This document shows, piece by piece, positions 5,631 through 45,797 of a DNA stretch of 64,000 nucleotides; the stretch's first letter is position 1; each line of letters starts with the position of its first letter. The stretch is from positions 16,035,344 to 16,099,343 of the forward strand of contig OX578281.1 in assembly GCA_951217055.1 (NCBI GenBank). The letters are read 5' to 3'. Position numbers and translations under genes: made by a program. The stretch is from Gerris lacustris (Eukaryota > Arthropoda > Insecta > Hemiptera > Gerridae). A model generated the notes under the pieces. The model was not told the origin of the DNA, ran no database searches, and worked only from the letters and a program-made list of their open reading frames with translations.

Positions 5631-6211
5631 TAGTCCACAGGCGACCTTAAGAAGTGAGTCGCTGATTGATAAAGTTTTCTTTTCTTATGGAATCGCTTAT
5701 TTATGCCGTGTCCACCGATGAATTGGGTATATGGCAACTGGGCGCTGGGCCATTTCTTTTTCGTTGACATGCCGAACTTGCCCTTCTGCGGGAACATTGA
5801 AAAGTGATAGATAAAGTTTTGATTTTCACAGGATCGTTTAATTAAAGTATTTCAAAAACAGTGGTAAAGGTGGCCACTGATACGAGTGGGCCGTTTTCTT
5901 TTCAACGTCCCCGCAGAGCGATATGTTTGGGGCGGTGGACACCCCAAACGGCCCACTCTTATCGGTGGCCATGTGTACCACTATTTTTTAAATAATTTAA
6001 TTAAACGATCCTGTGAAAATCAAAACTTTATCTATCTCTTTTTAATGTTCTCGCAGAAGGGCAAGTTTGGCATGTCAACAAAAAAGAAATGGCCCAGCGC
6101 CCAGTTGCCATATACCCAATTCATCGGTGGACATGGCATAAATAAGCGATTCCATAAGGAAAGAAAACTTTATCAATCAGCGACTCACTTCTTATGGTGG
6201 CCTGTGGACTA
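5631..6211. mobile_element. Palindromic TA-flanked MITE, copy 1
   Basis: A foldback element of about 580 bp: TA-GTCCACAGGCGACC at the left and the matching complement ending GTGGAC-TA at the right, with nearly the whole left half inverted in the right half. The centre (about 5870-5970) carries nested inverted words around GGCCACCGATA and GGGCCGTTT. TA at both ends suggests cross-mobilisation by a Tc1/mariner-type transposase. A 108-codon frame from 5886 lies in the palindrome and is not conserved as protein between copies, so it is not a gene. Copy 2 lies at 32904-33484 in the opposite orientation. Confidence 0.9.
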
Positions 6212-15250: not shown

Positions 15251-15666
15251 GATGGCCGGGATATAAGTTAAGGAATATGTAGAAAGGCACTCTTCTCCTC
15301 CACTACATGGCTCTCTATTACAATCATCCTCTTTAACTATCAACTCATGATTAACTATTTTCTTAATATCTAATATTTATTGCATTACGCTCGCTTCAAT
15401 GATAGAACAACGCGATGCCTAGTGTAAATTTATTTTTCCTACTTAGAAATAGGATGGATTCAAAATGAATTTTAGCCTTGATGTTAACAGGAAAATAATT
15501 TTCGATTATCCAACTTGTTTTTATAGATTCATATTTTATATATATACCTATACTTAAACATTGTTTAACTTTCTTTTTCATTTTGTTTCAGGTAAACATT
15601 GTTATATTTAATGAACTTCAAGCATTTTTTTTAACCGTAAGTTCATCGAAATTTATATTTATATTT

Positions 15667-15873
15667 AAATTTTTAAGTTTTAGGTAGTATTCTTACTACG
15701 GAAAGATTAAATTTTAATTTAAATCAAATTATAATTATCATTAACTACGGGAGACATACATCAGTTGGTAAGAGCGCCTGTAACGGATATATAGGAGGCC
15801 CGCGGTTCAAGTCCCGGTGCTGGGGTCTATTTTTCTCTGTATGTCTCCCGTAGTTAATGATAATTATAATTTT
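15667..15873. mobile_element. 207-bp snapback insertion with tRNA-like loop and 16-bp target duplication
   Basis: Exact 16-bp direct repeats ATTTATATTTATATTT flank it (15651-15666 and 15874-15889), and the uninterrupted relative at 45600-45680 lacks it. Inside, a perfect 35-bp inverted repeat (15726-15760 and 15838-15872, containing TTAACTACGGGAGACATACA) encloses a 77-nt loop with a tRNA-like half: AGTTGGTAAGAGCGCC (D-arm/box A region), a pairable anticodon-like stem, GGTTCAAGTCC (box B), GTGCTG and a T5 run typical of pol III termination (15830-15834). A long target duplication implies target-primed retrotransposition, hence SINE-like, but the loop-in-stem shape is not that of a standard SINE. 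Confidence 0.88.
15761..15834 (+). ncRNA. Degenerate tRNA-like sequence in the loop
   Basis: Box B GGTTCAAGTCC at about 15804 is perfect and the D-loop words AGTTGGTA and AGAGC are intact. The 5' half of the D stem reads CATC instead of GCTC, the T stem (CGCGG/CCCGG) has mismatches, and no acceptor stem closes, because the left part of the inverted repeat occupies the place of the tRNA 5' end. It is therefore not a working tRNA gene, although an internal pol III promoter could still be active. No amino-acid identity can be given. Confidence 0.6.
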
Positions 15874-16040
15874 ATTTATATTTATATTTCATCAATTTTT
15901 TTAATTGATATTAGCTTGAGTTTAAGCATTAACAAGTATATAATCATCAGGATTTTCAGTTGGAAAGTCCAATTTATCGCTCCAAGAAAAGTAATCAAGT
16001 TAGAATTAGTGATAACTAAGTACAAGGGGCTTTAGCTGGG

Positions 16041-30336: not shown

Positions 30337-30709
30337 TAGGGATGTGTGATGGACCACTTTAGGTGTGAAAAAAATATACAGTTACATCATTTTCAATAAG
30401 ACGTTTCGACCCTTCATTTTAAGGTCATCCTCAGTCATAGTTTATTTCTGATTTTTGTTGGTTTTATGTTTTTTAACACGTAATAAAAGACAATTATTGA
30501 ATTCATTAATAATCGATGAATGAATAATTGAAGAAGTCGAAGAAATTCAATAATTGTCTTTTATTACATGTTAAAAAACATAAAACCAACAAAAATCAGA
30601 AATAAACTACGACTGAGGATGACCTTAAAATGAAGGATCGAAACGTCTTATTGAAAATGATGTAACTGTATATTTTTTCACACCTAAAGTGGTCCATCAC
30701 ACATCCCTA
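30337..30709. mobile_element. Foldback MITE with a hammerhead-like core in each arm
   Basis: TA-GGGATGTGTGATGGACCAC at the left pairs with GTGGTCCATCACACATCCC-TA at the right, and about 165 bp of arm on each side is nearly complementary. In each arm, reading towards the end, the order is CTGAGGA, hairpin (GACCTT/AAGGGTC or AAGGATC), GAAA, CGTC. On the plus strand the positions are CTGAGGA 30613-30619, GAAA 30640-30643 and CGTC 30644-30647; the left arm has the mirror version on the minus strand at about 30395-30440. The TA flanks suggest Tc1/mariner-type mobilisation. No ORF. Confidence 0.85.
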
Positions 30710-32903: not shown

Positions 32904-33484
32904 TAGTCCACAGGCCACCATAAGAAGTGAGTCGCTGATTGATAAAGTTTTCTTATCTTATGGAATCGCTTATTTATGCCGTGTCCACCGATGAATTGGG
33001 TATATGGCAACTGGGGGCTGGGCCATTTCTTTTTTGTTGACATGCCAAACTTGCCCTTCTGAGGGAACATTGAAAAGAGATAGATAAAGTTTTGATTTTC
33101 ACAGGATCGTTTAATTAAATTATTTCAAAAACAGTGGTACACGTGGCCACCGATAAGATTGGGCCGTTTGGGGTGGCCACCGCCCCAAACATATCGCTCT
33201 GCGAGGACGTTGAAACGAAAACGGCCCACTCGTATCGGTGGCCACCTTTACCACTGTTTTTGAAATAATTTAATTAAACGATCCTGTGAAAATCAAAACT
33301 TTATCTATCTCTTTTCAATGTTCCCGCTGAAGGGCAAGTTTGGCATGTCAACAAAAAAGAAATGGCCCAGCCCCCAGTTGCCATATACCCAATTCATCGG
33401 TGGACACAGCATAAATAAGCGATTGCATAAGGTAAGAAAACTTTATCAATCAGCGACTCACTTCTTATGGTGGCCTGTGGACTA
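32904..33484. mobile_element. Palindromic TA-flanked MITE, copy 2
   Basis: Same element as 5631-6211 but in reverse orientation: TA-GTCCACAGGCCACC... and ...GGTGGCCTGTGGAC-TA. Both arms and the asymmetric centre are conserved. Frames of about 100 codons in either direction encode mirror-image peptides because the element is a palindrome. Confidence 0.9.
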
Positions 33485-45537: not shown

Positions 45538-45797
45538 AGTTTAACTTTCTTTTTTATTTTGTTTCAGGTAAATATTCTTATAATTAATGAAGCTCAAGCA
45601 TTTTTTCAACCGTAAGTTTATCAAAATCTTATACTTATATTTCAACAATTTTTTTTTTTTAAATGATATTAGCTTGAAATAAAGAATAAACAAGTAAAGA
45701 TTATTATTAGGATTTTCTGTTGGAAAGTCCAATGGATCGCTCCAAGAAGAGTAATCAATTTAGAATAAGTGATTACTAAGTACAAGGGGCTTTAGCC
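45538..45797 (+). repeat. Dispersed repeat 'TTTGTTTCAGGTAAA', copy 2 (empty site)
   Basis: Uninterrupted relative of 15558-16040. Between TTATACTTATATTTCAACAA and GATATTAGCTTGAAAT there is only a T run, showing that the 207-bp tRNA-like segment is an insertion in the other copy. Confidence 0.82.

Follow-up and report, generated by a model that had tools for sequence, protein, structure and literature searches.

A small tRNA-bearing repeat unit of Gerris lacustris, probably moved by Penelope-type machinery

The hairpin insertion and its empty site

How does an insertion with a target site duplication come to contain a perfect hairpin around a tRNA-like loop? The question is raised by a 207-bp insertion at positions 15667-15873 of the window, the 64,000-nt stretch of the Gerris lacustris assembly analyzed here, which is flanked by identical 16-bp copies of a target site duplication (15651-15666 and 15874-15889; 16/16 positions). 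Within it, 15726-15760 and 15838-15872 are exact reverse complements (35/35), with imperfect pairing the arms reach 56 nt (91%), and the fold of 15661-15889 has a z-score of -9.0, with 0 of 200 shuffled sequences folding as well. The flanks, joined with one copy of the duplication, align to 45539-45796 on the forward strand with 85.7% identity over 259 bp and small indels only, and this host repeat paralogue without the insertion is, as judged by alignment, a real empty site in the same window. Insert, duplication, perfect arms and empty site had all been described in an earlier note on this DNA and were confirmed by the sequence comparison. The 16-bp duplication is of low complexity (TTTATA-like) and, taken alone, does not rise above shuffled controls.

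By BLAST, the insertion resolves into two pieces of a 353-bp unit that is dispersed in the host genome (coordinates u1-353, equivalent to L023:749-1101), namely u301-201 inverted, followed by u124-256 forward. The first piece (15667-15760, reverse strand, 96.0% identity to the unit) would represent a cDNA that ran from a start site 2 (about u294-301) down to u201, and the second (15761-15873, forward strand, 95.5%) a cDNA from a start site 1 (about u236-256) down to u124. The outer limit of the inverted piece, where an AT-rich target meets an AT-rich element, is uncertain by several nucleotides and that of the forward piece by as much as about 20 nt; with all 16 bp of the duplication counted as target, the ends of the element lie near u294 and u236. 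A small hairpin (15684-15699, reverse strand), visible in sequence and fold, occupies the 'tail' region between the two start sites. With the stop of one cDNA at u201 and of the other at u124, both pieces include u201-235, which forms the perfect 35-bp arms, as u235-201 on the reverse strand to the left and u201-235 on the forward strand to the right, and the loop consists of the tRNA-like part (u124-200). This arrangement agrees with the head-to-head joining of two cDNAs that were primed separately.

The tRNA-like domain of the window copy (15761-15825, forward strand) lacks its 5' acceptor strand because the cDNA stopped at u124. The complete domain, at u113-188 of other copies, matches the Rfam tRNA family RF00005 with 29.0-42.8 bits (6 matches on three of the four loci scanned), whereas in the window, where this copy lacks the 5' acceptor strand, Rfam gave no tRNA match and ARAGORN in its bacterial setting found no tRNA. 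The box B motif GGTTCAAGTCC at 15804-15814 on the forward strand and a T5 run at 15830-15834 on the same strand, a possible Pol III terminator 4 nt past the domain, could both be verified in the sequence, in agreement with the earlier description of the loop.

Perfect inverted repeats are not rare in the window. One of 77 bp at 33063-33325 (arms 33063-33139 and 33249-33325) has related copies near 5631-6211 and in locus L046 and, to judge from these sequences, looks like a foldback or DNA-transposon family; another of 41 bp at 30438-30609 encloses a 90-nt loop, and others lie in TA repeats. The window also contains a 29-bp tandem repeat at 564-1106 (18.7 copies, 99% match).

A dispersed unit with two start zones

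With the segment as query, the host assembly (69 contigs, 937 Mb) yielded at least 107 matches (40 scored of 1082 first-look candidates), and a query of u188-353-109 returned at least 62 matches (40 scored of 3071 candidates). The element is thus dispersed, and the earlier note was right in seeing a tRNA-bearing retro-insertion with target duplications. Its snapback SINE class, which calls for the same arms at several loci, is not supported, as the junction pattern of the window copy was found once genome-wide (one forward and no reverse match at up to 2 mismatches in 937 Mb). The same assembly holds a full-length nuclear (or misassembled) copy of mitochondrial COX1 at G000:C1:5210962-5212302, with a score equal to that of the mitochondrial contig C69. 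The COX1 fragment of the mitochondrial contig matches Gerris gibbifer with 100% identity over 447 aa and Aquarius najas with 99%, in keeping with a water strider in or close to Gerris.

Locus L023 is a head-to-tail tandem of the unit, with about 353 bp in each repeat. Across the loci read, tandem units stand in head-to-tail order, insertions often consist of an inverted piece plus a forward piece, and most pieces are about 85-98% identical to the 353-bp unit. Inner and outer piece ends vary from locus to locus and no two loci share a junction, and the gaps or overlaps between adjacent paired pieces are mostly short (-2 to +32 nt), as expected of end joining. A fixed-end MITE or foldback DNA transposon was rejected on account of the variable outer and inner ends together with the tandem units. 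At L072:714-745, u181 and u35 are joined without a change of orientation, as though a template jump had occurred during synthesis of a single cDNA. In a pile-up of 29 loci, mean conservation was 0.974 over u191-200, the interval of the T5 run; the tRNA-like region was no more conserved than the rest of the unit, and thus gives no sequence-level sign of constraint.

In the first 21 loci the two inner breakpoints seemed to add up to a constant, which proved to be an artefact of selecting those loci with the window copy as query. For this reason, the statistics use L066-L088 instead, and the 21 window-query loci (L001, L009-L028), which look alike, are left out of the counts. The 23 loci L066-L088 were chosen without the window copy, 8 via u188-353-109 and 15 via u220-302. 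L066-L073 come from the 40 scored places of the u188-353-109 search, five of the eight having been chosen for a visible inverted partner; L074-L088 run roughly down the list of 40 u220-302 matches, mostly omitting places already listed by earlier queries, and this query is biased by its u220-302 requirement towards site-2 ends of u300 or more. Two pieces were excluded before counting, a third piece of 32 nt in L072 and, in L078, a diverged left piece at a distance of 647 bp.

Piece starts (n = 40) concentrate in two zones about 50 nt apart, with 18 in u238-260, 13 in u285-311 and 9 elsewhere. These zones cover 50 of the 353 positions and hold 31 of the 40 starts, which is far from chance under uniform placement. 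The 17 two-piece insertions comprise 10 that pair site 1 with site 2, one that pairs site 1 with site 1, none with site 2 at both pieces and six with another start; L080 uses site 1 twice, and L081, L082 and L084 start elsewhere. Mixed pairs account for 10 of the 11 classifiable two-piece insertions, with a p-value of about 0.005 that, like the others, is descriptive, since both start and stop zones were defined with the data in view; the ends themselves may be off by as much as about 20 nt. Target duplications exceeded all 30 shuffles in 9 of 21 loci tested, out of a list of 29, with lengths of 7-16 bp and one being a poly-A run; in the other 12 of the 21, the window included, no duplication beyond the shuffles was found. 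The flanks of the unit look AT-rich by inspection.

A probable Penelope-type mechanism and its rivals

In the available portion of PMC11167929, reverse transcription of an anole Penelope-type element (PLE) is described as starting at two adjacent sites inside the RNA, the interval between them forming an optional genomic 'tail' called unique to PLEs, and both DNA strands are reported to be cut and extended, with a preference for AT-rich DNA. The two start zones, mixed pairing and head-to-head pieces of the unit correspond to this published signature and thus argue for Penelope-type insertion. We consider it likely that the insertion is a non-autonomous retroelement, with a 353-bp unit, a tRNA-like domain and two start zones, that is moved by PLE machinery. 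The claim is that the unit works like a PLE and is probably moved by one, and it does not extend to descent from a PLE.

A GIY-YIG search of the host genome identified many PLEs (150 of 1680 candidates scored). Among six long frames scanned, four (620-900 aa) contain a GIY-YIG domain, that of L047 encodes a LINE-type reverse transcriptase, and the 858-aa frame of L063 gave no domain match. Open frames of 845-900 aa are present in L035, L039, L040, L048, L056, L058, L059, L062 and L063, and the PLE copies L035, L039 and L040, at different places, form one family with >99% identity; such long frames and near-identical copies suggest recent PLE activity. Three PLE insertions for which both ends were compared (L034, L057 and L065) contain a head-to-head inverted piece, target duplications of 11-13 bp and one-sided extra sequence of 28, 37 or 24 nt at one end only. 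As far as their sequences can tell, they are built in the same way as the unit insertions.

The unit was also compared by BLAST with 32 partly overlapping GIY-YIG loci, and the matches listed are stray unit copies and AT-rich matches. The strongest listed match that is not plainly a unit copy is to L046/L030 (66% over 126 nt, E 7.5e-6 under lenient scoring). A PLE with the tail or 5' sequence of the unit was not recognized among these 32 loci, a minority of the PLE copies in the genome. ARAGORN found no tRNA in 20 PLE loci, and Rfam at its gathering cut-off gave no match in 27 of the 32 (12 plus 15, L061-L065 being left out). Hammerhead-like motifs, for which CTGANGA represents the core, were identified by pattern in 9 of 12 and 6 of 20 PLE loci, and a deviating form was seen by eye in four more. 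Cores that deviate from CTGANGA occur in some PLEs, such as CATGATTATG in L058 and L065.

In the proposed mechanism, tandem copies would be transcribed into RNA longer than one unit, and a PLE enzyme would cut both strands of an AT-rich target, by analogy with the anole element (PMC11167929, in the portion available). Each cut end would prime a cDNA, as a rule with site 1 used by one end and site 2 by its partner, the start zones and the orientation of the pieces being evident in the sequences themselves. Synthesis would proceed in the 5' direction of the template, on occasion across two or more units, and each cDNA would stop independently, often at the 3' edge of the tRNA-like domain, where ends are observed to cluster. 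Head-to-head joining of the two cDNAs would then involve little sequence in common, and repair of the gaps would leave a duplication of about 7-16 bp where detectable.

The cluster of stops is pronounced, with 20 of 40 in u169-204 compared with 4.1 expected under uniform placement and 5.6 under an exponential-length model, which reached 20 stops in this interval in 0 of 4000 simulations. The u220-302 sample alone places 16 of 27 stops in the cluster (0 of 4000 simulations), and the u188-353-109 sample alone 4 of 13, without significance (343 of 4000 simulations). Ten of the 40 stops lie just 3' of the domain (u191-203), ten in the T loop, T stem and acceptor 3' strand (u169-184) and none at u185-190; outside the cluster at the tRNA 3' edge, 5' stops are scattered. 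Furthermore, near unit-length copies in a single orientation end in or beside the domain at L081 (u176/u156) and L082 (u201/u178). The cluster suggests that the tRNA-like domain folds in the template RNA and makes the enzyme stall there, or that RNA cut at the tRNA 3' end acts as the template; stalling would explain the cluster as well as cutting does.

A tentative possibility is that the tRNA-like domain has replaced the hammerhead of PLEs and animal retrozymes, such that host tRNA-processing enzymes, RNase Z (at u188/189) and perhaps RNase P, would cut tandem transcripts into unit-length templates and the PLE reverse transcriptase would run off their ends. The stops at u191-203 and u169-184 and the ends of L081 and L082 are consistent with such processing. 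If true, the unit would stand beside the retrozymes as their 'tRNA-processed' equivalent and represent a SINE-like class that parasitizes PLEs. That the domain serves simply as a promoter, in the manner of SINEs, is doubtful, since a T5 run is expected to end Pol III transcription and the run directly past the domain would do so before the start sites are reached.

The perfect arms and tRNA-like loop of the window copy had been read in the earlier note as a snapback SINE, in which a cDNA or RNA would have folded back to serve as its own template, so that a family with fixed inverted arms would result. Snapback copying is rejected because the junction was found once in the genome and the outer ends are unequal: a fold-back predicts mirror-image outer ends, whereas those observed lie at two different unit positions. 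In addition, the loop is not a copied hairpin tip, as u124-200 should then have been copied twice and is present once, and we regard this origin as extremely improbable. The hairpin appears to have arisen as a side effect of insertion, with no snapback structure of its own kind involved; it is an ordinary outcome of an unusual element. An ordinary tRNA SINE mobilized by LINEs, then rearranged by twin priming and later tandem duplication, would account for the domain with boxes A and B and for the target duplications. It is nevertheless unlikely, because the starts of both pieces lie mostly in two zones of the 3' region, unlike L1 twin priming, where the inverted part derives from a more upstream position of the same RNA. 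Moreover, Pol III would be expected to stop at the T5 run, 4 nt past the domain, before transcribing the rest of the unit, and tandem units and inversions are frequent among the loci that were read.

The unit might alternatively be a hammerhead-type animal retrozyme with an unrecognized ribozyme, the tRNA-like part being incidental. Its tandem unit size falls within the range of 170-400 nt given for animal retrozymes in the available part of PMC7229834, where involvement of PLEs is already proposed for them, and the silence of Rfam on the unit is weak evidence, given that the gathering cut-off also misses the hammerhead-like motifs of PLEs. Against this, a CTGANGA core (up to 1 mismatch) followed by GAAA is absent from both strands of the circular unit, and no ribozyme family appears among the Rfam matches at E up to 5 on four loci. 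Neither the pattern on both strands nor Rfam on the four loci thus found a type I hammerhead in the unit, for which an unusual variant is possible, and we consider a retrozyme very unlikely.

Comparison with known systems

The unit resembles PLEs of the Penelope/Poseidon type, as described in the available portion of PMC11167929, in its tandem and inverted copies, the one-sided tail arising from two adjacent starts, the extension of both strands and the variable target duplication. In contrast to PLEs, it has no ORF and no detected hammerhead, and its tRNA-like domain lies upstream of the start sites. With animal (non-LTR) retrozymes, as presented in the accessible parts of PMC7229834 and PMC7761336, it shares small tandem non-coding units of about 170-400 nt, long target duplications and a suspected use of PLE enzymes, which the former names as a strong candidate to move these elements. 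Animal retrozymes are defined by a type I hammerhead, whereas none was found in the unit, and its two-start tail is a feature not mentioned for retrozymes in the same parts of these papers. The SINE-like SMalpha elements of schistosomes have a repeated unit of similar size (335 bp) and, unlike the unit, carry a hammerhead ribozyme; the term 'tRNA' is absent from the available text of PMC8490949.

Like tRNA-derived SINEs, the unit is non-coding and contains a tRNA-like domain with boxes A and B, but it lacks a fixed 5' end at the tRNA and a single 3' end and instead occurs as tandem units and head-to-head pieces. The tRNA-bearing LTR TRIMs named Helenus likewise represent a captured tRNA in a non-autonomous retroelement outside the LINEs; they belong to the LTR class, with duplications of 5 bp given for the plant family, and 'Penelope' is absent from the text of PMC10886601 available. 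Short non-autonomous Penelope copies, similar to the unit in this respect, are named in passing for Heliconius in PMC6685494, the accessible text of which describes no tRNA domain. That paper was the only one in the open-licence literature with the phrase 'nonautonomous Penelope', and no description of a tRNA-bearing PLE-type element was found in this literature, subscription papers and Repbase being outside the scope.

If it holds, the novelty lies in the element itself, a small tRNA-bearing unit that shows the insertion marks of PLEs and in which no ribozyme was detected. With its length of 353 bp and pieces about 85-98% identical, the unit provides a DNA record of both start sites, of priming on both strands and of the stopping points, by which the in-vitro model of PLE insertion (PMC11167929, in the portion available) becomes testable genome-wide. 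It also offers a direct sequence test of the suggestion, made in the available part of PMC7229834, that small non-coding units are moved by PLE enzymes. LINEs have tRNA-bearing parasites in the form of SINEs, and so, as has become known more recently, do LTR elements in the form of Helenus; the unit looks like their counterpart for PLEs, the third class of retrotransposons.
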